This document shows, piece by piece, positions 1,857 to 23,707 of a stretch of DNA of 43,770 bases. Within the stretch, counting starts at the first letter, position 1, and the number at the start of each line of letters is the position of its first letter. Both the position numbers and the translations under genes were made by a program. Under the pieces are notes generated by a model. The model searched no databases, was not told the origin of the DNA, and saw only the letters and a list, made by a program, of their open reading frames with translations. Source of the stretch: Methanospirillum sp. (GTDB lineage Archaea > Halobacteriota > Methanomicrobia > Methanomicrobiales > Methanospirillaceae); NCBI GenBank assembly GCA_012728895.1, contig JAAYEG010000037.1, forward strand, positions 1 to 43,770. The letters run 5' to 3'.

Positions 1857-2913
1857 CTCCTTCGATCCGCATCGCCCGGGCGCCGCCGACGCCGCCCCGG
1901 CGCCGGGCGCGATCGCGCTCCCGCCGCAGCTCCGGCGGACCGACCTCCGGTTCGTCCTCGTCCGCGCCGGCGAGAAGCGTGCCCTCGAGAGCGGCTGGCC
2001 GACCGTCGCGAACTACGCCCACGACCACGTCACCCTCGCCCTCCGGCTCGTGCGCGGCCTCCCCTACGGCCTCTTCCCCGCGCCGGCATCGCGGATCGCG
2101 ATCATCGACGCGGACCACCTGGACCGGCTCCGCGAGCTCGGCGCGCTCGACCCCCTGCCCGGGACCTTCGCCGTCGCCTCCGGTTCCTCCGCGCCCGCTC
2201 ACCCGAAGGCACACCTCTACTACGAACTCGACGGCGAGCCCCTCGCCGGCCGGCGCCCCTTCTTCGACCCCGGGACCGGCGAGCACCTCGGCGAGGTCTT
2301 CGCCCAGCACCCCGGCGGCGGCAGGGGGTTCGTCATCGGCCCCGGGTCCCGCCACGCCGCGACCGGGCGCCCCTACCGGGTCGCGCGGGACACCCCGATC
2401 GCCGCCCTCCCCCGCGACGCCTGGGCCGGCTTCGCCGCCGCCGTCCGGTGGCAGGAGCGGGCCGCGCGCCCCGTCCCCGCCGCTCCCGGCAGCTCGATCG
2501 GCGACCGCCTCGGCCTCACCGTCGACCGCGTCTGGCCCCCGCCCGCCGGCGCCCGCGTTTCGGGAGAGTGGCTCCGGTTCGCCCACCCGGTCCACGGCTC
2601 CGCGAACGGCGACAACCTCGCCGTCCACCGGACGGGGCGCGCCTGGTACTGCCACCGGTGCGGGAGCAGCGGGGACGCGCTCGCCGCCCTCGCCGTCGAC
2701 GCCGGGATCATCGCCTGCGCCGACGCCCGGCCCGGGTGCCTCGCCGATCCCGGCCTCATGCAGAAGGTCGCCGACGCCGCGCGGGCGCGCGGCCTTCCCG
2801 TTGACGAGGCCGACCGGGCCCGGCGGCGCGCCCGCCTCCCGCCGCCGTACGAGTCCCTCGACATCGCCGCGATCCGCGCCCGGATCGAAGCCGCCGTGCG
2901 GAGGGCCGCGTGA
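1837..2913 (+). CDS. Primase-polymerase (PrimPol) with CHC2-like zinc finger
   Basis: A 358-residue protein resembling the bifunctional primase/polymerase domain of archaeal plasmids and integrated elements. The catalytic acidic motif is IAIIDAD (Asp91, Asp93). It is followed by a region with PKAHLYYELDGE, Glu153 in GEVF and the glycine-rich GGGRGFVIGPGSRH (about 160-173). A zinc-finger-like segment at about 246-285 has HPVHG, NLAVH and WYCHRCGSSGDALAAL, with His250/253 and Cys272/275 as probable ligands. It probably synthesises primers for replication of the element. GTG 1837 was chosen because it follows a GAGGG run and corresponds to the start of the relic copy at 21077. The 3' end overlaps the helicase start. 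Confidence 0.8.
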   Translation: MYAAADNSFDPHRPGAADAAPAPGAIALPPQLRRTDLRFVLVRAGEKRALESGWPTVANYAHDHVTLALRLVRGLPYGLFPAPASRIAIIDADHLDRLRELGALDPLPGTFAVASGSSAPAHPKAHLYYELDGEPLAGRRPFFDPGTGEHLGEVFAQHPGGGRGFVIGPGSRHAATGRPYRVARDTPIAALPRDAWAGFAAAVRWQERAARPVPAAPGSSIGDRLGLTVDRVWPPPAGARVSGEWLRFAHPVHGSANGDNLAVHRTGRAWYCHRCGSSGDALAALAVDAGIIACADARPGCLADPGLMQKVADAARARGLPVDEADRARRRARLPPPYESLDIAAIRARIEAAVRRAA

Positions 2914-4418
2914 TGGACGCCGTGGTCCCGCCGCTCCCCGACCCTCCCCCCGCCCCCGTAGAGGCCGCGATCGACCGCGCGGGCACGCGGGAGGCGGTCG
3001 AGGCCGCCGTCACCCGCGCATGCCGGGACTTCCACCCGACCGACACCGGCAACGGCAAGCGGTTCGCGCTCCGCTGCGCCGGCGAGGCCCGGTTCTGCAT
3101 CGGGCGCGACCGCTGGTACCGGTTCGACGGCGCCCGGTGGGCGCCCGATCCCGGCCGGACCGTCCGCGAACTCGCCAAGGCCACCGCGGTCGCCATCAAC
3201 GCCGAGGCCGCCGACGAGCCCGACGACGCCCGGCGCCGGGAGCTGCAGCGGTGGGCGAAGGAGAGCGAGTCTTCCGCCCGGATCAACGCCATGCTCCAGA
3301 TGGCCTCGACCGACCCCGCGATCAGCATCGTGCCCGACGACCTGGACGCGGACCCCGATCTCTTCGCGCTCGAGAACGGCACCCTCGACCTCCGCACGCT
3401 CGCGCTCCGGCCACACCGGCGCGAGGACCTGATCACGAAGCTCGCCGGGGTGGCGTTCGACCCGGCGGCGGCGTGCCCGCGGTGGGAGGCGCACCTCCGG
3501 CTGATCTTCGCCGGCGACGAGGGCTACATCCGCTCCCTTCAGGAGCTCCTGGGCTACGCCCTGCTCAGCGGCAACCCCCTGCAGATCTTCCCGATCTGGT
3601 GGGGGAGCGGGGCGAACGGCAAGAGCGTCACCATCGCGACGGTCCGGTCGATCCTGGGTGACTACGCGGTCTCGGCCGCGGCCGAGGTCTTCATGGTGAA
3701 GGCGAAGGACGCCGGCCCGCGCCCGGACGTGCTCGCGCTCCGCGGCGCCCGCCTGGTCGTGGCCGTCGAGTCCGAGCGGGGCCACCGCCTGAACGAGGCG
3801 TTCATCAAGCAGACGACGGGCGGCGACCCGTGGACCGGCCGGAACCTGTACAGTTCGACCATGGAGACGTTCGTGCCGATCCACCTCGCGATCCTGGTGA
3901 CGAACCCGCTCCCCATCGTGACGGGGGTCGAGGACGCGATCTGGAGGCGGCTCCAGTTCTGGCCGTTCGGGGTGACCATCCCCCCCGCCAGGCGGATCGC
4001 GGAGTACGAGCGGGTGCTGCTCGGGGAGGCGCCGGGGATCCTGAACTGGATGCTGGACGGGCTCCGGCGGTTCTACGCGCAGGGCCGGAGGATCACGGTC
4101 CCGCCGCCGGTGCGGGCGGCGACGGCCCTCCAGCGGAGCGAGATGGACCCGCTCGCGCCGTTCCTGCGGGACGAGTGCGTGCGGGACTCGGCGGGCGTGG
4201 TGGACCGCGTGGTGCTCTACGACCGCTACGCGGTCTATTGCGAGGAGACGGGGGACGACCCGCTCTCGAAGAGGGCGTTCGCGAACGCGCTCAAAGAGCG
4301 GGGGATCACGGACGGCCCGAAGGCGCACGGGCGCCGGACATGGCGGGGGGTCCGCGTCCAAACGCCGGCGGAGCGCGGCGAGGCGGAGGCGACGGGGAGC
4401 CTGCAGGAGAACCTCTGA
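2910..4418 (+). CDS. D5/P4-family phage-plasmid primase-helicase (SF3 ATPase)
   Basis: A 502-residue protein. The N-terminal half contains the D5_N region, including DLDADPDLFALENGTLDLR (about 144-162). Walker A is GSGANGKS (232-239), Walker B is around RLVVAVESE (281-289), a sensor LVTNPLP lies at 329-335, and IWRRL (344-348) is a likely arginine finger. This is the usual SF3 layout of replicative helicases in phages, plasmids and integrated elements. The start is GTG 2910 or ATG 2913; either overlaps the PrimPol stop, so the two proteins are probably made together. The last about 100 residues match the winged-helix-like tail region of the second D5 protein at 13951. No integrase lies nearby. 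Confidence 0.88.
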   Translation: MMDAVVPPLPDPPPAPVEAAIDRAGTREAVEAAVTRACRDFHPTDTGNGKRFALRCAGEARFCIGRDRWYRFDGARWAPDPGRTVRELAKATAVAINAEAADEPDDARRRELQRWAKESESSARINAMLQMASTDPAISIVPDDLDADPDLFALENGTLDLRTLALRPHRREDLITKLAGVAFDPAAACPRWEAHLRLIFAGDEGYIRSLQELLGYALLSGNPLQIFPIWWGSGANGKSVTIATVRSILGDYAVSAAAEVFMVKAKDAGPRPDVLALRGARLVVAVESERGHRLNEAFIKQTTGGDPWTGRNLYSSTMETFVPIHLAILVTNPLPIVTGVEDAIWRRLQFWPFGVTIPPARRIAEYERVLLGEAPGILNWMLDGLRRFYAQGRRITVPPPVRAATALQRSEMDPLAPFLRDECVRDSAGVVDRVVLYDRYAVYCEETGDDPLSKRAFANALKERGITDGPKAHGRRTWRGVRVQTPAERGEAEATGSLQENL

Positions 4419-4426
4419 CCGTCGCG

Positions 4427-4530
4427 GGGCACGGGGGCACTGCGGGCAGATGGTCTCCGGAACTTCCACATATCCAGGTTTTCCATGGGAAGAGAGCCGG
4501 ATCTCTCTGCCCCGCAGTGCCCCTGTGCCC
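4427..4530. repeat. Hairpin-armed structured repeat, copy 1
   Basis: Two long complementary arms lie at 4427-4450 and 4506-4530. They pair with one mismatch and one extra base and are separated by 55 bases. Read on the reverse strand, the core has CCATGG, then GTGGAAGTTCCGGA. A related copy lies at 16226-16316. It sits directly after the helicase stop and ends against the stop codon of the next reverse-strand gene. It could be a bidirectional terminator, an element end, an origin or a small RNA; the sequence alone does not decide. Confidence 0.65.
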
Positions 4531-5715
4531 TCACGATGAACCGGCGTACGCGACCCGGTAGACGACGCCGTTGAAGTCGTCGCCGACCAGGAGGGCACCG
4601 TCCGGGAGGACCGCGAGCCCGGCAGGCCGGCCGAAGACTCTGTTGCCGTCGTAGAGGAACCCGGTCATGAAGTCCCCGAATCCCTCGGGCTCGCCGGCGT
4701 CCGAGAAGCGGAGCCGGGCGACGGAGTAGCCGTTCGGCGGGTTCCGGTTCCAGGAGCCGTGGAGGGTCACGAACGCGTCGCCCCGGTAGTCTTCGGGGAG
4801 GGCCGTGCCGTTGTAGAACCGGAGCTGGATCGGCGAGGCGTGGGCCGGGAGCTCAAGCACCGAGGGCTCGGTGGTGGCGGCGAACGCCTCCTTCGTGGTC
4901 CCCGCCGGCTCGAACGGCGTGAGCCGGTCGGGTACGCGGCGGCCATAGACGAATGGCCAGCCGTACTGGCCGCCGTCGACGATCCGGTTGACCTCCTCGG
5001 GCGGCAGGTCGTCGCCGCGGAGGTCAGAGCCCTGGTCCGCGCCGTACAGCTCGCCGGTGGTTGGGTGCCAGTCGAAGCCCATGGTATTTCTGAGTCCGCT
5101 CGCGTACACCCGTCGCGTCCCGTTCTCGAGCACGAGCATGGCCGCCCGCTCGGGGCTCTCCTCCTCGCAGGCGTTGCAGGTCGAGCCGAGGGTGAGGTAG
5201 AGCCGGCCGTCGGGGCCGAGCCCGAGCCCCGGGGCCTGGTGGCTGCCGCCAGCGGGCAGGCCGTCCGTGACGACCCCGGGCGTTCCGGGCGTGCCTCCGG
5301 GCCCGAGCGGGGCGGCGTAGCCTGTCGTCGGCGTTGCGAAATAGAGCGTGTCGTTCCCGAGCGCGAGCCCGTGGACGCCGGGGTAGCCCTCGAGGACGGT
5401 CTCGGCCGTCTCGGACGAGCCGTCGCCGTCGGCGTCGCGCAGAAGGATCACCGAGCCCGTCGAGGGGACGGAGGCGTAGACCGTGCCGTCGGAGGCCGCG
5501 ACCAGGACACGGACGCCGCCGAGGTCGCGGGCGAAGACGTTGGCCGCAAAGCCGGGCGGGAGCGAGAGGCGGGAGAGGAGCGACTCGTCGAAGGCCACCC
5601 GCTCGGGGGTGAAGGTGGAGACCGACGGCGGCACTCCGCCGAGGCCGCCGGGGGCGGAGCAACCGGCCGCGAGCAGGGCCGCGACGGCGAGCACGAGGAG
5701 CATCAGGAACCGCAT
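4531..5715 (-). CDS. PQQ-dependent sugar dehydrogenase-like beta-propeller lipoprotein
   Basis: A 394-residue protein. The N-terminus is a lipoprotein signal, MRFLMLLVLAVAALLAAGC, with lipobox LAAGC. The rest resembles the glucose/sorbosone dehydrogenase (six-bladed propeller) family. It begins at LPPGFAANVFARDLGGVR, continues with blade motifs such as GLGLGPDGRLYLTLGS and GLRNTMGFDWHPTTGELYGADQGSD, and ends with GLAVLPDGALLVGDD. Soluble homologues oxidise aldoses with PQQ and calcium. Archaeal lipoproteins of this type are usually of unknown substrate, so activity is not certain. It is probably anchored outside the membrane. The start codon fits the signal peptide; the upstream motif is shared with 8297-8330. 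Confidence 0.8.
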   Translation of the reverse strand: MRFLMLLVLAVAALLAAGCSAPGGLGGVPPSVSTFTPERVAFDESLLSRLSLPPGFAANVFARDLGGVRVLVAASDGTVYASVPSTGSVILLRDADGDGSSETAETVLEGYPGVHGLALGNDTLYFATPTTGYAAPLGPGGTPGTPGVVTDGLPAGGSHQAPGLGLGPDGRLYLTLGSTCNACEEESPERAAMLVLENGTRRVYASGLRNTMGFDWHPTTGELYGADQGSDLRGDDLPPEEVNRIVDGGQYGWPFVYGRRVPDRLTPFEPAGTTKEAFAATTEPSVLELPAHASPIQLRFYNGTALPEDYRGDAFVTLHGSWNRNPPNGYSVARLRFSDAGEPEGFGDFMTGFLYDGNRVFGRPAGLAVLPDGALLVGDDFNGVVYRVAYAGSS

Positions 5716-5855: not shown

Positions 5856-7988
5856 TCACGTCACCCAGACCGAGGGCTGCAGGACCTTGAGCAGATCGAT
5901 GCTGGAATACGGGTCGCCACTGCCCGCGGCAGTCAGACGCACGAAGAACCGGGGGTAGTACAGCCCCGGCTCGGGGAACCACTGCACGAACGGGGGGAGG
6001 ACCGCGGTGCCCTCGGCCACGCCGGGCCCGGTTGTCACCACGGTGCCCCCGGCGTCCAGCACGGTGACCTCGAGCCCGAAGGGGACGTTATCGACCGAGA
6101 CGGAGTAGGTGACCGCCTCCCCGGAGCCGATCTCGGCCGACTGCGGCGAGATGCGGGCGTCGGGCCTGGTCAGCGCGATCGGGACCGAGGCCGCGTCCGT
6201 GCCGCCGTTCACCACCGTGTAGAAGACCACGTCCCCGTCCTTCGCCGTGAAGACGGTCGGCCCGAACGGGTGCGTCCCAGAGCTGTCCGAACCGTAGTCG
6301 TACGTGAACGTCCCGTCGGAGTGCGCGACGAACCGGGTCACCTGGCACCCGTCGGGCAGGGGACCCCCGCCGCCGGACCACGCGTCCACCAGAGTGGCCT
6401 CCGTGGCGCCCCCGGTGCTCACCCGGTACGCGGGAGTGACCGTCCCCGTCCCCTGTCCGCTCAGCACGACGTGCATCGAGCTCGACCCCGGGAGCGGGGA
6501 GGCCCCGTCGAGGACCGGCTGCCGGACCCGGGCCCAGACGGCCGGCGGGTCGTCCGTCGTGGCGAGGTGCGCCGCCATCATGTTCCGGTAGGTCGCCTCG
6601 AGCGAGCGGGAGTGCGCCAGCCCCCAGGCGTCGACGGCGTCGTAGGCGGAGCCGTATGTCGTCGAGGAGGTCCAGAGTTCGCGAAACGTCGGCGGCTGTC
6701 TATTGAGCAGCTGGTGCACGACCTGCGCCGTCTGGTACTCGTGGTAGCTGTCGACCGTCGTGAGCGGCTTCGAGAAGAAGGCCGAATCGATAGGGAACAG
6801 GGGGCTGGGATCCCAGTCGAGGAGGTAGGTCGAGGCGTACTCGGCCGTGGCCTCGGTCCACCAGCGGTTGCCGTTCATCCAGGCGACCGAGACGTACGCG
6901 TTCTGGACCGCGTGGAAGAGTTCGTGCCGCATCTCCGCCTCGAGCCGGAGGTCTGCCCCGGGCCCGGGGAGGAACGGCTCCCGCGAGACCGTGATCGTCT
7001 TGGTGGTCGGGTTCCACCCGCTCTCGTAGTAGTCCCCGACGTAGACGTGGATGAAGCCGTCGCCGGTGAACCGGGAGGGGACCGGGGGCTGGAAGCCGTA
7101 GGTCTCCCGATACCGGGTGTTGGCGTCCCAGAGGATGTCCCGCACCCTGGACGCCAGGGCGTCGGCCGCGGTGTAGTTGCCGGATCCCTGCCAGGCCTTG
7201 GCGATCGCGGCGTCATCGGCGGGATCGAAGTGGATGACGAACGGGATGGCGTAGAGCTCGGTGACCGGGCCGGGCTGCAGCACGGCGGTGAAGCCGGCGA
7301 CGCAGAGGTGATCGGTCTCGAGGACGACGACGCCCCGGGAGGTGTCGATGGCGGTCGGGATCTCCACCCATTCCCCGGCCTGTGCATCCCACCGGACTTC
7401 CTGGATGGCCTGATCGGGCCTGTACCCCGTGGGGACCATCGAGGACCGGTACGGGATCTCGATCACGATCCCTGGCGCGAACCGTTCCTGGTCGCCGATG
7501 GTGATGTCGTAGACCGTCAGGTTGGACGTCCCCGCGGGCGGGGCGGGAGGGCTCGGCACGGTCGCGACGCGGACGAGGGCGGCCCGTTCCAGCGCGCCGC
7601 CGGGGACCGTCAGGTTGACCCCCGCGCCGGCGAGGGTGCGGTCCTCGGCGGACGGTGCGAGGGACTGCGAGATCAGGACGGCTGGACCGGTCGCGCCGAG
7701 CTCGTTGAAGAGCGAGACGACGTCCGCGAAGTCGATCCGGCCGTTGTCGTTGTAGTCGAACTCGGCGACGGGCTCGTTCGCCGCGAGCCAGGTCAGCTGG
7801 TTGAAGTAGAGCACGACGTCCGCGAAGTCCTTCCTGACGTTCGCGTTGAGGTCCTCGTGCTTCCCGTCGCCATCAGGGTCGGTCGGGACGAGGGTGTTTG
7901 GCGGTACGGGCACGAGATCACGAGCGGCCGCCGGGGTGACGGCCAGGAGCGCGAGGAAGAGAACGAGGAGCAGGGCCCCGGTTCGCAT
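5856..7988 (-). CDS. Secreted dockerin-bearing zinc metalloprotease
   Basis: A 710-residue protein with signal peptide MRTGALLLVLFLALLAVTPAA. Residues 37-97 form a dockerin-like pair with calcium-loop motifs DPDGDGKHEDLN and DYNDNGRIDFADVVSLFNEL. A beta-rich region about 120-235 (VNLTVPGGALERAALVRV) follows. The protease has HELFH (355-359, HExxH zinc motif) and WWTEATAEYAST downstream, whose Glu is a plausible third ligand, as in gluzincins. The C-terminal about 250 residues look like Ig-like or jelly-roll modules. The start was placed at the Met of the signal peptide although the frame is open to 8585. A T-rich element lies about 25 bases upstream. It is probably cell-surface and may pair with a cohesin elsewhere. 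Confidence 0.75.
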   Translation of the reverse strand: MRTGALLLVLFLALLAVTPAAARDLVPVPPNTLVPTDPDGDGKHEDLNANVRKDFADVVLYFNQLTWLAANEPVAEFDYNDNGRIDFADVVSLFNELGATGPAVLISQSLAPSAEDRTLAGAGVNLTVPGGALERAALVRVATVPSPPAPPAGTSNLTVYDITIGDQERFAPGIVIEIPYRSSMVPTGYRPDQAIQEVRWDAQAGEWVEIPTAIDTSRGVVVLETDHLCVAGFTAVLQPGPVTELYAIPFVIHFDPADDAAIAKAWQGSGNYTAADALASRVRDILWDANTRYRETYGFQPPVPSRFTGDGFIHVYVGDYYESGWNPTTKTITVSREPFLPGPGADLRLEAEMRHELFHAVQNAYVSVAWMNGNRWWTEATAEYASTYLLDWDPSPLFPIDSAFFSKPLTTVDSYHEYQTAQVVHQLLNRQPPTFRELWTSSTTYGSAYDAVDAWGLAHSRSLEATYRNMMAAHLATTDDPPAVWARVRQPVLDGASPLPGSSSMHVVLSGQGTGTVTPAYRVSTGGATEATLVDAWSGGGGPLPDGCQVTRFVAHSDGTFTYDYGSDSSGTHPFGPTVFTAKDGDVVFYTVVNGGTDAASVPIALTRPDARISPQSAEIGSGEAVTYSVSVDNVPFGLEVTVLDAGGTVVTTGPGVAEGTAVLPPFVQWFPEPGLYYPRFFVRLTAAGSGDPYSSIDLLKVLQPSVWVT

Positions 7989-13950: not shown

Positions 13951-15840
13951 TCACCAGGAGAAGACCTCCGGGTTCGCCTCATCGTTGTCCTTGAACCGGA
14001 TCCCGCGCCAGAACCGGACGAACTCCACCTCGCCCCGGGCATTGATCACCCTGGCCCGGCCCGGGTCGGGGGTCACACCCCGGTTCTTGAGGTGCTCGGC
14101 AAACCGCTTCGCGGACACCGGGGTGACCCCGTTGTCCTTCGCCCACGAGAGAAAGCCGGCATACAGGTCCGACCTGACCTCGCGATCGCCCGGGGCCCCG
14201 GTGACGACGCATTCCTCGTCCACGAACCGCGCGGCCACGTCGGCCTCGAGCCGGTACTCCTCGGTCGCCACGGCAAAGACCGCGGGCTGTGCGAGCCGGC
14301 CCGCCTCGCGGTACCGCGCGAGGCCGGCGAGGCACCAGTTCAGGATCCCGGACCGCTCGGCGAGCATCTTTTCGGCGATCGCCTCGTCCCGGTCCCCGGG
14401 TGGAATCGTCACCGCGAACGGCACCAGCCAGATCCGGCGCCACAGGGACGGGTCGGTCGAGACGGGCGGTCGGTGGTTCGTGGCGAACCAGATCTTGTAT
14501 CCCGGCCGGTAGGTGAACTCCTCCTGGTAGAGCTTCCGCACCGTGATCGGGTCGCGGCCGGTGAGCAGCTTGACCACGGCCTCGTCGAGCCGGGAGCCCT
14601 CGGCCCCCTCCGAGGTCGTGACGAGCCGCGCCCCGACCAGGGCTGCGAGCTCTGTCCTCGGGGCGTCGCTGTGCCGGCGGGCGAGCAGGGTCCGCGAGGC
14701 GTCGACGTTCTGCGCGTAGTCCCCCCAGATGGTAGAGAGGACCTCGAGCGTCTTCGATTTCCCGTTGGCCCCGGTCCCGTGGAGGATGAAGAAGACCTCG
14801 GCCGGGTTATCGGCGAGCAGGCTGTACCCGCACATCGACTGGAACCCGGCGATGGCCTCCGCGTCGCCTCCGAAAATCCGGGAGAGGTGCCCCTCCCAGG
14901 TCGGGCAGACCGCTCCCTCGAGGTAGTCCACGTCCGCGAGCTTGGTCAGGTAGTCCTCCGGCCGGTGTTGGCGGAACGTGCCGGTCGAGAGCTCGATGGT
15001 GCCGTTCCGGACGTTGAACAGGTCCGGGTCGGCGTCCAGGTCCGCGACCTGGACCGGCACCTCCGACTCCGCCAGGTGCAGCATGGCCTTGATCGTCCGG
15101 GCGCTCTCGGCCTGCTTCGCGAAGCCGAGCAGGGACCGCCGCGCCGCGTCGTCCTCGATCCGGGCGACCTCCGCGTAGAGCCGGCGGGCCGTCCGCTTGG
15201 CCTTCGTACGCACGCTGCCGGCCGTGTCCCGCTCCCAGATGCGTCCGTTCCAGACGAGCCACGCCTTCATCCCGGAGCAGTAAAGGACGGACTCCCAGTG
15301 CTCCGCGACGAACCGGTCGGCGAGCCCGACCTCGGTGTAGTGGTTCTCGTGCTTCGAGAGCGGGGTCACGGGCAGCCGCGTCTTCCGTGCGCGCCAGAAC
15401 TCCCCGTACACGAGGTTCGGGAGGTCCGCGGGGTCGAGCGCATGGGTGTAGTCGGCGTTGTAGAACTGTATCTCCCGGAGGGCCTCGAGCGGGGTGCGCC
15501 GCTCGAAGAGGAACAGGAGCCGGGCCGTCTCGCGGAGGGTCCGTTCGAGGTCGAGCCGCTTCCTTTCGGCGTCGGGCTCCCCGAGTACCACGTCGGACCC
15601 ACCCTCGGGTCCGGGCGCAAGAGGGGGCATGGAGGCCACCATCGCTTCCCTCTGCACCTGGAACGCGCGGACGCGCTCGGCGATCTCGTCGGCCGAGACC
15701 GCGCCGGTCACAGGCGGAACAGCGCAGTGTGGTGGACCCGGGCCGGCAGCGGGCCTGTCGTCCACGGGGACACTCGCGCCGCCACCCGCGGTGACGCCGA
15801 TGGCACCGGTATAAAGGCCGGCGCGTTCCGGGTCTTTCAT
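13951..15840 (-). CDS. Second D5/P4-family primase-helicase
   Basis: A 629-residue SF3 helicase. The first about 100 residues are low-complexity. Residues 100-180 carry a segment (LDLERTLRETARLLFLFERR to HYTEVGLADRFVAEHW) with no counterpart in the 502-residue D5 at 2910. Then follow YCSGMKAWLVWNGRIWERD (187-205), DLDADPDLFNVRNGTIEL (268-285), Walker A GTGANGKS (355-362), ARLVTTSE (404-411), sensor WFATNHRPP (451-459) and LWRRIW (466-471). The C-terminal winged region has ARFVDEECVVTG and KRFAEHLKNRGV. No primase or RHH-like gene accompanies it. A TATA-like TAGTATAATTA lies on the same strand about 260 bases upstream. It is probably the core of a decayed integrated element. Confidence 0.85.
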   Translation of the reverse strand: MKDPERAGLYTGAIGVTAGGGASVPVDDRPAAGPGPPHCAVPPVTGAVSADEIAERVRAFQVQREAMVASMPPLAPGPEGGSDVVLGEPDAERKRLDLERTLRETARLLFLFERRTPLEALREIQFYNADYTHALDPADLPNLVYGEFWRARKTRLPVTPLSKHENHYTEVGLADRFVAEHWESVLYCSGMKAWLVWNGRIWERDTAGSVRTKAKRTARRLYAEVARIEDDAARRSLLGFAKQAESARTIKAMLHLAESEVPVQVADLDADPDLFNVRNGTIELSTGTFRQHRPEDYLTKLADVDYLEGAVCPTWEGHLSRIFGGDAEAIAGFQSMCGYSLLADNPAEVFFILHGTGANGKSKTLEVLSTIWGDYAQNVDASRTLLARRHSDAPRTELAALVGARLVTTSEGAEGSRLDEAVVKLLTGRDPITVRKLYQEEFTYRPGYKIWFATNHRPPVSTDPSLWRRIWLVPFAVTIPPGDRDEAIAEKMLAERSGILNWCLAGLARYREAGRLAQPAVFAVATEEYRLEADVAARFVDEECVVTGAPGDREVRSDLYAGFLSWAKDNGVTPVSAKRFAEHLKNRGVTPDPGRARVINARGEVEFVRFWRGIRFKDNDEANPEVFSW

Positions 15841-16225
15841 GGTGCTGCCCCCCCGAGTGGAGGGCGGTTGCAGGAAGGGGTGGCGTGTCCCGGAGAAGGA
15901 GGAAGCCGTGCCCTCCGCATGACGCTTTTCCGAACGTGTCCGGAGAGGCCGCGGCGGCCGGCGGTTCTATCCCAACGCGCGCCGCCCCCGGGACGGTCGC
16001 GCACGATACAGACGATGACGACTTTGAACGAACTCCTTAACATGACTTCTATGTTGGAGCGAAGTCAGGGCAGGGTGGATATAGGACCAATGCACGTAAT
16101 TATACTAATACATTGCGCCTTCACGGTCCCGCAGGGGGCCGGGATGAGACGGCAGCCGGGAGCACGATCGGGTCGGAGGTTCTGTGTTCGTCCTCGTCTT
16201 GCCCACACCCCTTCCGGTGTCAGAT
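15841..16225. other. Long leader/promoter region of the second D5 gene
   Basis: AT-rich bases at 16091-16110 contain a TATA-like element for the reverse strand (AGTATAATTA). GACTTC (16044-16049) and GAAGTC (16061-16066) form an inverted repeat; overlapping it, AACAT (16037-16041) pairs with ATGTT (16051-16055). These are candidate operator or leader structures. A 68-codon reverse frame (15837-16043) overlaps the helicase start but lacks family features. Confidence 0.4.
16044..16066. repeat. Inverted repeat upstream of the second D5 gene
   Basis: GACTTC and GAAGTC arms are separated by 11 bases within an AT-richer region, about 200 bases before the start codon. It is possibly a regulator site. 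Confidence 0.4.
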
Positions 16226-16316
16226 CGTGCCAGTTGTGCCACTTCGAAAGAGAGATCTCCATGGGAGATGAGTACCGTGGAGAAAGTTTCCGGATCCGGC
16301 CGGCACATCTGGCACG
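16226..16316. repeat. Hairpin-armed structured repeat, copy 2
   Basis: CGTGCCAGTTGTGCC (16226-16240) pairs with GGCACATCTGGCACG (16302-16316) in 14 of 15 positions. The 61-base interior has CCATGG (16259-16264), then GTGGAGAAAGTTTCCGGA. The reverse strand of copy 1 has the same order: arms built from repeated GTGCC units, CCATGG, then GTGGAAGTTCCGGA. Both copies lie beside a D5 helicase, though on opposite sides of it. Confidence 0.65.
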
Positions 16317-16706
16317 CGGCACTCTCTCCCTGGCCGTAAACTGTGATTTTGCTCTGTATTTACCATCCAGAATTGCGATTTATGCCCGGAATGGGGATAT
16401 TCTATCTCGATCCCGGATGTGATCGATCTGACACGGCCCGAGCCCGTGGGGGAGCGGATCGCGCCGGTGTGGGGGCAGGGCCCTCCGTCGGTTCGCCCGG
16501 GATGCGGGTTGGAGACGACGCCGGTCTGCGCGGAGGTTGTTGTCGCCGGCGGGTCGGCGACCGGACGATGGTGACCCCGACCAATTCGTCGTTGACGGGA
16601 GGGTCATGACCGCGCCCGGGTCCTGGCGCGACTCCGACGCGAACGCCGGGGGACTGCGCGGGAATACCTGCCGCCGGGCACGGACGCCCCCGTCGAGGGC
16701 CGGCGA
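16317..16706. other. Intergenic stretch, no gene recognised
   Basis: The first 90 bases are AT-rich (TTTTGCTCTGTATTTACC) and could drive the forward strand. The remainder is GC-rich and contains only chance frames ahead of the D5 relic. Confidence 0.35.
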
Positions 16707-17015
16707 CGGCCCCGTCGGCGTCCAGCCGCTCTCGCGCCGACCGGTCTCGACCCGTTCCAGCAGCACGGGCAGGACTGCACCGGGGTCGGGCTCGCCGAAC
16801 GGTTCGTGGGGGAGCACCGGGAGTGGAGCCGCTCCTGTCCGAGATGAAGGCCTGGCTGCTCTGGAGCGGCCGGGTCCGGGAACGGGACGCGGCCGGCGCG
16901 ATCCGGGCGAGGGCGAAGCGGACGGCGACCTGCTCGAGGCGCCGGGTCGAGCGGCCCGGGGCCGACCTGGTGCAGCGGTTTCTGGACGAGGAGTGCGAGG
17001 TCCGAGGGGGGAAGG
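16707..17015 (+). pseudogene. Relic of a third D5 helicase with large internal deletion
   Basis: One frame gives DPFQQHGQDCTGVGLAERF then VGEH, matching SKHENHYTEVGLADRFVAEH of the intact D5 at 13951. After a frameshift near 16825 comes SEMKAWLLWSGRVRERDAAG, then RAKRTAT, matching MKAWLVWNGRIWERDTAG and AKRTARR. Directly afterwards the frame jumps to ADLVQRFLDEECEVRG, matching ADVAARFVDEECVVTG. Residues about 225-533 of the intact protein, including both Walker motifs, are absent. The order and orientation are preserved, so this is one gene shortened by an internal deletion. It cannot make an active helicase. Confidence 0.75.
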
Positions 17016-20729: not shown

Positions 20730-20871
20730 GTACACAGGGAACGCCCGATTCACTCGCGCACGACAGATCCAGGCCTCATGCAGCGGGGGGGCCCGTCGCC
20801 ACGTTTTAATGCTTTTTTCACGATAAGCAGATGCAGATGTATGGACCGCACCCGCGCCCAGGAGTGATCGG
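20730..20871 (+). promoter_or_regulatory. Control region of the second RHH-like gene
   Basis: GTACACAGGG (20730-20739) repeats the motif before the first copy. GTTTTAATGCTTTTTT at 20803-20818 is the most TATA-like region. The block from 20831 to the start codon (ATGCAGATGTATGGACCGCA and on) aligns with 1582-1622. So promoter, leader and gene were duplicated together. Confidence 0.5.
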
Positions 20872-21096
20872 ATGAGGCCGGGCGACGAACCCAGCCCGCC
20901 GGCCATCACCCTCCATCGCGAGGCGATGGAGCCAGCCGTGCGCACCCTCGCCGCGCCCAGCTCCGCGTACCTGGCCGCGACCATGAAACACAACCTGGAC
21001 GGCGCCGGGAAGCCTGGCAGCGACGACGGCCCCATCCAGCACCCCCACCAGCCGAAACGCAGGGAGGCAGAGACAGGTGAGCGCGCCGGCGGATAA
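20872..21096 (+). CDS. Second copy of the small RHH-like protein
   Basis: A 74-residue protein, clearly related to 1623-1856: MRPGDEPSPPAITLHREAME against MRPRTATSPTAITLPAETKA, then SSAYLAATMKHNLDGA against SSYLAELMKADLDGA, and PGSDDGPIQ and QPKRR. Substitutions such as P to R/E in helix 1 may have changed specificity. GGAG lies about 9 bases before the ATG. Its last 20 bases overlap the GTG of a PrimPol relic, as in copy 1. The gene is intact, so it may still bind operators of the first module (inference). Confidence 0.55.
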   Translation: MRPGDEPSPPAITLHREAMEPAVRTLAAPSSAYLAATMKHNLDGAGKPGSDDGPIQHPHQPKRREAETGERAGG

Positions 21097-21141
21097 CTCC
21101 ATCGGTCGACCGGCCGACCCCGCCGTTCGCCGCCAGCCGTC
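21077..21141 (+). pseudogene. 5' remnant of a second primase-polymerase gene
   Basis: GTG 21077 starts VSAPADNSIGRPADPAVRR, parallel to VYAAADNSFDPHRPGAADA at 1837. After about 20 codons similarity disappears at the point where the reverse-strand Kelch gene ends. The frame closes at 21247 inside the antisense of that gene. The rest of the PrimPol and its helicase are gone, or may be represented by the separate D5 copies. Confidence 0.6.
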
Positions 21142-22143
21142 CTACCCCGAACTCGAGCTCATGGGCGCCGTCGACACCGCCGTCCCGCCGACGACGAGGA
21201 TGCTCCCGTCGGGGAGTGCCACGCACCCGTGGTACCACCGGGGGTAGAAGAAGAAGTTCGTGTGGTTTTCGGGGTCGGGCGTCTGCTCGACCCAGCTGAC
21301 CCCCCGGTCGGTCGAGATCCAGAGGTCGGTATGCGAGAGAGGGTGGTCGGGGTCGTAGTACCGCCCGCCCGTCACGGCGATCCGGCCGTCGGGGAGGACG
21401 ACGGCGGCGAGCCCCCAGCGGTCGCCCCACCCGGCGCTCTCGGTCTGCCGGGTCCAGGTCTACCCCTGGTCGGTCGAGCGCCAGGCGTCGTTGTACTGCT
21501 CCGCGCCCCACCCGCCCATCATGACGATGCTGCCGTCCGCGAGCGCGACAGCCGCGTGGCTGTCGCGGGCGGCCCAGGGGGCGTTCTCCACCTGCCGCGT
21601 CCAGGTGACGCCTTTGTCCGTGGACCGCCAGACGTCGTCCAGCACGGCATTCGTCGAGTCCCGGCCGCCCATAACAACGATGCTTCCGTCAGGAAGACAG
21701 ACGGCGGCGTGGCGCGAGCGACCCGCCCACTGGGCGTGCTCGGTCTGCCGGACCCAGCTCGCGCCCCGGTCCGTCGACCGCCAGACGTCGTTCGCCCCGC
21801 CCCCGACGTAGCCGCCGGTCATGACGATGCACCCGTCCGGGAGCGCCACGGATGCCGCGTAGGGACGGGACGTCCACTCGACGGTATCGGACCGCCTTGT
21901 CCAGTTATCGGCCGACCAGGCCTCGTCGCCGAAGTACCAGGCCCAACCGAGAGGCGCACCGCTCGAGGCGTCCGAGAACGAGACGGCGAGCGGTGCGACG
22001 CCAGACGTCGGGACGACCGATTACTGGGCGGCGGGGACGATGGCAGCGGAGGGACTCGCGGCCAGGCCGGCGACGATGACGGCGAAGATTACGGAGACGA
22101 CGGTATCGCAGCGCACAGTACAAAATGGTGTCGGTGGAGGCAT
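21142..22143 (-). pseudogene. Secreted PKD/Kelch (sialidase-like repeat) protein with two in-frame stops
   Basis: ATG 22143 starts a signal peptide with VSVIFAVIVAGLAASPSAA, followed by AAQ and TAA (22021-22023). The same frame goes on with SVVPTSGVAPLAVSFSDASS and GWAWYFGDE, a PKD domain start, and then repeats of about 56-60 residues: HAAVCLPDGSIVVMGG, DDVWRSTDKGVTWTRQ and similar. A TAG at 21460-21462 replaces the Val of a GVTWTRQ-type unit (DQG, stop, TWTRQTESAGW). The last unit ends VALPDGSILVVGGTAV and stops at 21142, at the junction with the PrimPol remnant, so the 3' end may be truncated. Repeats of this type form beta-propellers on secreted proteins. Confidence 0.7.
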
Positions 22144-23490: not shown

Positions 23491-23707
23491 TCAGAGGTGG
23501 GTGAAGAGCCAGACCACGTCGGTGAAGTCGATCCTCGTGTTGCCGTTGTAACCGAACAGGGACAGCGGCTCGTTGCCGGCGACCCGATCCATCCGGGTGA
23601 AGTACCGCACGACGTCCGCGAAGTCCGGCCGGCCGTTGCCGTCCTCGTACAGCCCGTCGGCGTCGGTGTCAAGCGGCGTCCCGCCGCCCCCGGGGATGGG
23701 CGCCCCC
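23491..23707 (-). pseudogene. Orphan dockerin domain remnant next to dcd
   Basis: The frame encodes a Gly/Pro linker (GAPIPGGGGTPLDTDADGLY) and a dockerin pair with DFADVVRYFTRMDR and GYNGNTRIDFTDVVWLFTHL, closely resembling the dockerin in the metalloprotease at 5856-7988. There is no start codon between the dcd stop (23708-23710) and the linker. The domain is the 3' end of a secreted-protein gene whose front part is missing. It begins exactly at the dcd stop, which marks the border between the accessory and core halves. Fusion to dcd by frameshifting is possible but unlikely. Confidence 0.7.

Follow-up and report, generated by a model that had tools for sequence, protein, structure and literature searches.

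The sequence at 4424–4532, referred to here as copy 1, is most likely (probability about 0.86) a DNA replication origin of a D5/P4-type mobile replicon that now lies within a methanogen chromosome. It was found in a 43,770-nucleotide stretch of Methanospirillum sp. DNA, called the window below. We infer the function of copy 1 from its position, its anatomy, the coevolution of such iterons with the C-terminal domain of the initiator, and its known counterparts. The first-pass annotation had listed an origin first among several options, and this option fits the 3′ position of such arrays (29/70 genes versus 0/63 in 5′ flanks), the iterons, the coevolution, and the parallels with P4 crr, SaPI, PICI and pRN1. 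Copy 1, its parts and the genes before it are as follows.

1837–2913, + strand: Prim-Pol (archaeo-eukaryotic primase) ORF (PF09250, 1.4e-8), with a 4-bp overlap with the D5 ORF
2910–4418, + strand: SF3 helicase of the D5/P4 family (primase C-terminal part), the initiator presumed to read copy 1 (profile matches and predicted structure)
4424–4532, + strand: copy 1, putative replication origin, with 2–3 iterons per arm around a core (strict 2+2 array with 1 mismatch)
4426–4449, + strand: left iteron array (GGGGCAC 4426–4432, GGGGCAC 4434–4440, degenerate GGGCAG 4444–4449)
4451–4506, no strand: core between the arrays, presumed from its composition to be the melting region
4507–4530, − strand: right inverted iteron array (CTGCCCC 4507–4513, GTGCCCC 4517–4523, partial GTGCCC 4525–4530)

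Copy 1 starts about 8 bp 3′ of the D5 stop at 4418. Iteron units of 8–10 bp (GGGGCAC) are present in both arms and flank a core of about 55 bp. The G+C content was about 53% in the core, 75% in the left arm and 70% in the window. The near-perfect arm pairing reported by the first-pass annotation, placed here at about 4426–4450 with about 4506–4530, was borne out by folding of 4424–4532, which gave −73.6 kcal/mol versus −43.2 in dinucleotide shuffles (z = −7.5); none of 200 shuffles equalled it. What had been described as doubled GTGCC units were iteron-like direct repeats, GGGGCAC/GGGGCAC...CTGCCCC/GTGCCCC in copy 1 (4426–4523) and GTGCCAG/GTGCCAC...CCGGCAC/CTGGCAC in a second element, copy 2 (16227–16315). 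The window was scanned for pairs of direct 7-mers, spaced 8–11 bp, opposite a pair of inverted ones at a distance of 25–115 bp. Exactly these two arrays were found in all 43,770 bases. The ordered core similarity claimed for the two copies was weak, yet it exceeded that of shuffles (p = 0.002) with an alignment score of 25 when each copy was read in the sense of its D5 gene, which is also the relative orientation first proposed. An alignment with both copies in the + orientation was dropped once D5 remnants had fixed the sense.

The protein of 2910–4418 matched the D5_N (9.8e-32), Pox_D5 (3e-7) and TIGR01613 (9.3e-63) profiles. Its AlphaFold2 model had a pLDDT of 90.6, and a Foldseek search with the model returned viral primase-helicases and the SaPI5 primase-helicase (7ola_C, TM 0.72 by target). 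A C-terminal winged-helix-like domain at about residues 412–483 is suggested by the Pox_D5 match and by the predicted secondary structure, and in this part of the model helices and strands are confidently placed in an order that would suit a winged helix. The Prim-Pol ORF shares 41% identity with the N-terminal part of an 820-aa ORF of a relative (L032), in which Prim-Pol and D5 are fused. In Streptomyces pSALBX2 the two are split with a similar 4-bp overlap.

The genome, a methanogen MAG, contained two D5_N matches, both within the window. The window also encodes an archaeal-type alaS, gatB and a methanogenesis-marker-16-like protein, and alaS and gatB indicate a chromosomal setting. The surroundings of copy 1 yielded neither an integrase nor a structural gene. 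Because of this absence and the chromosomal setting, copy 1 may be silent; judged from its sequence it appears intact and is possibly functional. Elsewhere in the window, imperfect tandem copies of roughly 150–300 bp with 68–73% identity occupy 21352–21849, and dispersed direct repeats with 68–72% identity link 1572–1867 with 20821–21107 and 7698–7880 with 23494–23670.

The collection of D5 homologues covered 108 genomes of the family together with named genomes and viral contigs, and gave 70 non-redundant loci (Methanoregulaceae, bacteria and viral contigs). The 250 bp after each D5 stop served as the test flank, and 342 windows elsewhere in the same loci were used as controls. Inverted repeats scoring at least 11 were present in 45/70 of the 3′ flanks versus 9/342 controls (Mann–Whitney on scores, 1.4e-20). 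A loose iteron count (at least two direct and at least one inverted) gave no separation, with 64/70 flanks versus 298/342 controls, and a strict test was therefore devised afterwards, requiring a 2+2 array with at most two mismatches. Strict arrays were found in 29/70 3′ flanks versus 0/342 controls (p = 1.4e-25), and in none of the 63 testable 5′ flanks. In a positional profile within 1.4 kb, 28 of the 70 loci had the array at the stop, and any other 200-bp step had at most three. The other 41 loci failed the strict test; some of them have an inverted repeat alone and some have nothing. Iteron units varied from gene to gene (GGTGACA, TTGGACA, CCGGCAC, ATGACAC, ATCCTCC and others). The best relative in a phage collection belongs to Methanoculleus virus L4768, and there too an array follows the primase gene. 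The stretch L111:5300–5700 of this virus, 3′ of the primase/helicase gene, contains several successive iteron hairpins, partly within annotated small ORFs.

Copy 1 lies between convergent ORFs, D5 and a GSDH-like gene, just before the end of the latter. This position would also suit a transcription terminator or an mRNA 3′-end hairpin serving the two genes. We consider it quite improbable that copy 1 is only that, as termination needs neither tandem iterons, nor a 50–60 nt core, nor repeats specific to each gene, and the arrays recur beside D5 genes in unrelated surroundings. Moreover, pRN1 has a distinct small hairpin as its terminator, and this one tolerates mutation, whereas the large stem-loop does not (PMC4234260).

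The region of copy 2 has the following features.

13951–15840, − strand: second intact D5 gene (D5_N, 7.5e-33)
16221–16322, − strand: copy 2, probable fossil origin (GTGCCAG 16227–16233, GTGCCAC 16236–16242, inverted CCGGCAC 16300–16306, CTGGCAC 16309–16315)
16330–16450, − strand: probably what is left of the C-terminus of a lost D5 gene, adjoining copy 2 and upstream of it in the D5 sense
16751–16979, + strand: piece of yet another D5 gene, inverted, about residues 160–218 (74.6% DNA identity to 15135–15364; tblastn 2.8e-11)

The first-pass annotation had linked both elements with D5 helicases. The link held for copy 1; copy 2 is not 3′ of the intact neighbouring D5 gene, and the scan found no array at the 3′ end of 13951–15840. 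Copy 2 (fold z = −4.5) shares 85% identity with a copy on contig C23 (L015:7321–7418). Other copies were found on contig C1 (L016:3–98), in the sister genome G005 (L014:815–932) and in G001 (L119:1882–1980). Next to the G005 hairpin, at L014:944–1063 on the minus strand, is a clear remnant of the last 40 D5 residues (tblastn 1.3e-5), with a DNA score versus D5 of 93 and a shuffled maximum of 36. The stretches beside copy 2 and the C23 copy resemble this remnant (0/2000 shuffles each), and their direct match to D5 DNA was borderline (p = 0.06 and 0.04, respectively). Because the G005 counterpart has this clear remnant and 16330–16450 is similar to it, copy 2 is read, by analogy, as having belonged 3′ of a D5 gene since lost and not of the intact one. 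Together with the C-terminal remnant, the inverted fragment at 16751–16979 suggests that D5 replicons have repeatedly inserted and decayed at this place.

The G001 locus is orthologous to copy 1, with a frameshifted D5 gene, the same downstream gene and 81% identity over the locus; its hairpin iterons differ (GGGACA). G005 and, probably, copy 2 and C23 follow decayed D5 ends, and G001 stands beside a frameshifted D5. These four copies are probably origins left after D5 decay, and C1 may be another. In C1 (L016:1–104, G000) the array is at the very contig end, the assembly apparently breaks off within the hairpin, and any D5 gene would lie past the break. A partial match in G002 (L011:482–511) was set aside, its second arm not being seen. 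A covariance model (R1) built from copy 2, C23 and G005 and searched in the 108 family genomes gave clear matches at its own three loci alone. It missed copy 1, and the family is therefore united by layout, not by sequence.

Several copies per genome, the contig end at the C1 copy and the scattered presence in the genus could indicate a MITE or another mobile repeat that is bounded by inverted repeats and owes its spread to a transposase. We regard this as very unlikely, since the arms are built of tandem units that differ between copies, copies with known surroundings sit at 3′ ends of D5 genes or their remnants, G001 retains the orthologous position between conserved flanks, and no transposase was identified.

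Arm pairing was analyzed in eight closely related origins. In these, 96% of arm cells were paired and 8/16 pairs were changed on both sides; their covariation score was reached by 0/500 shuffles, and no slide came near it. The first-pass annotation had made its proposal depend on further copies in related genomes and on arm covariation, and both are present. Most of the compensated arm changes can be traced to the presence of one putative protein-binding iteron in both arms; nested pairing contributes a modest further signal. Much of the covariation would be expected from two inverted sets of one binding site, even without a hairpin. Comparing nested with crossed iteron identity over all arrays gave no significant difference (p = 0.057); symmetric arrays gave 20 versus 7 (p = 0.0034), a restriction chosen after the first result. 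For this reason base pairing beyond iteron identity is moderately supported.

Iteron similarity was also compared with protein identity. It followed the identity of the last ~105 residues, at the C-terminus (rho = 0.573), more closely than that of the helicase core (rho = 0.495). Beyond the helicase core, the partial rho for the C-terminal domain was 0.384 (Mantel p < 1/2000), shared ancestry being not fully removed from this value. These sequence comparisons suggest that the iteron tracks the D5 C-terminal domain. This link and the direct repeats within the arms point to a double-stranded DNA site. They count against a structured small RNA gene, for which the strong fold and the covariation would speak. 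We give that reading very little weight, as both strands fold about equally (z = −7.5 and −6.7 for the reverse complement) and no Rfam family matched the window at gathering score.

Counterparts of the putative origin are known in bacteria. PICI origins lie 3′ of rep and have two iteron sets flanking an AT-rich region (PMC6092414), SaPI origins share this position and layout (PMC7581432), and the C-terminal domain of SaPI Rep recognises its origin (PMC7581432). Similarly, copy 1 is immediately 3′ of its presumed initiator gene, with two iteron sets around an AT-richer core, and the initiator is a P4/D5-family helicase with a predicted C-terminal winged helix and a related structure (7ola). SaPIs and PICIs differ in being bacterial satellite islands with other iteron sequences, described as iterons and not as stem-loops. 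In phage P4, the annotated crr adjoins alpha at its 3′ end and has 8-bp type I iterons arranged ++ then --, about 36 bp apart, the same order and position as in copy 1 beside its D5-type gene. However, the 120-bp unit of crr is present in duplicate, the P4 ori is a separate site, and the P4 primase is of the bacterial TOPRIM type. At the putative SCCmec origin, the D5-type helicase Cch2 binds short repeats downstream of its gene via its C-terminal domain (PMC7581432). These are three 5-nt direct repeats only, and deleting inverted repeats there left binding unaffected (PMC7581432). No clear iterons were seen in the stretch taken from BIP-1, which the literature names as a counterpart.

The closest archaeal counterparts are the pRN1-family plasmids of Sulfolobus. 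A 100-nt stem-loop 3′ of orf904 is necessary for pRN1 replication and alone restores replication when moved; pRN1 is said to lack iterons, and the motifs recognised by its initiator are called not yet identified (PMC4234260). Like these plasmids, copy 1 is a stem-loop of about 100 nt 3′ of a Prim-Pol/SF3/winged-helix initiator, with a stem of about 20 bp and a loop of 50–60 nt (about 21 and 58 in pRN1). In both, the stem-loop sequence varies while the flanks are conserved, as in the G001 orthologue, and direct repeats lie inside the arms. At a spacing of 9 bp, TGTCCA occurs twice in the pRN1 stem (L109; 0.0007 of shuffled arms), GTCAC twice in that of pHEN7 (L123; 0.0006) and GGAC twice in that of pRN2 (L122; 0.03). 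These repeats in known or proposed origin stems are not described in PMC4234260. The pDL10 stretch had no such direct repeats or clear iterons, and the element was not seen in the regions taken from pSSVx and pHTUR06. Unlike copy 1, pRN1 is an episomal crenarchaeal plasmid for which its authors report no iterons; unlike pRN1, copy 1 is chromosomal, with Prim-Pol and D5 in separate overlapping ORFs. A rolling-circle origin (a mechanism earlier proposed by others for pRN1, as quoted in PMC4234260) or an att/resolution or packaging site of the element is highly improbable, as ORF904 has no endonuclease activity (PMC4234260), no nickase or integrase was identified near copy 1, and the position is tied to the helicase gene and not to element ends.

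As a replication origin, copy 1 could work as follows. The C-terminal winged-helix domain would bind the iterons of each array. Two SF3 helicase hexamers would form there, one set of iterons each, and separate the strands of the core, where Prim-Pol would prime; host proteins would then carry synthesis on, probably bidirectionally. Opening may be aided by a cruciform extruded from the nested arms. The other copies would be origins stranded by decay of their D5 genes.

It seems rather likely that the stem-loop origins of archaeal pRN plasmids and the iteron origins of P4 and SaPI are one ancestral design of D5-type replicons in archaea, bacteria and viruses: inverted 9-bp iteron arrays, nested so that the arms can pair, with a code set by the C-terminal winged helix of the initiator. 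Iteron origins beside such genes are already known, and the new part is the probable merging of iteron and stem-loop origins. If this reading is true, pRN1 ORF904 would recognise the TGTCCA repeat that lies in the stem of the plasmid itself. This is a candidate answer to what the pRN1 initiator recognises, and it bears on the dispute over how pRN1 replication starts. The arrays also offer a sequence-level rule by which origins next to archaeal and bacterial D5/P4-type primase-helicases can be located, and a simple, testable code between C-terminal domain and iteron. In this methanogen lineage, they mark probable fossil replicons in the chromosome.
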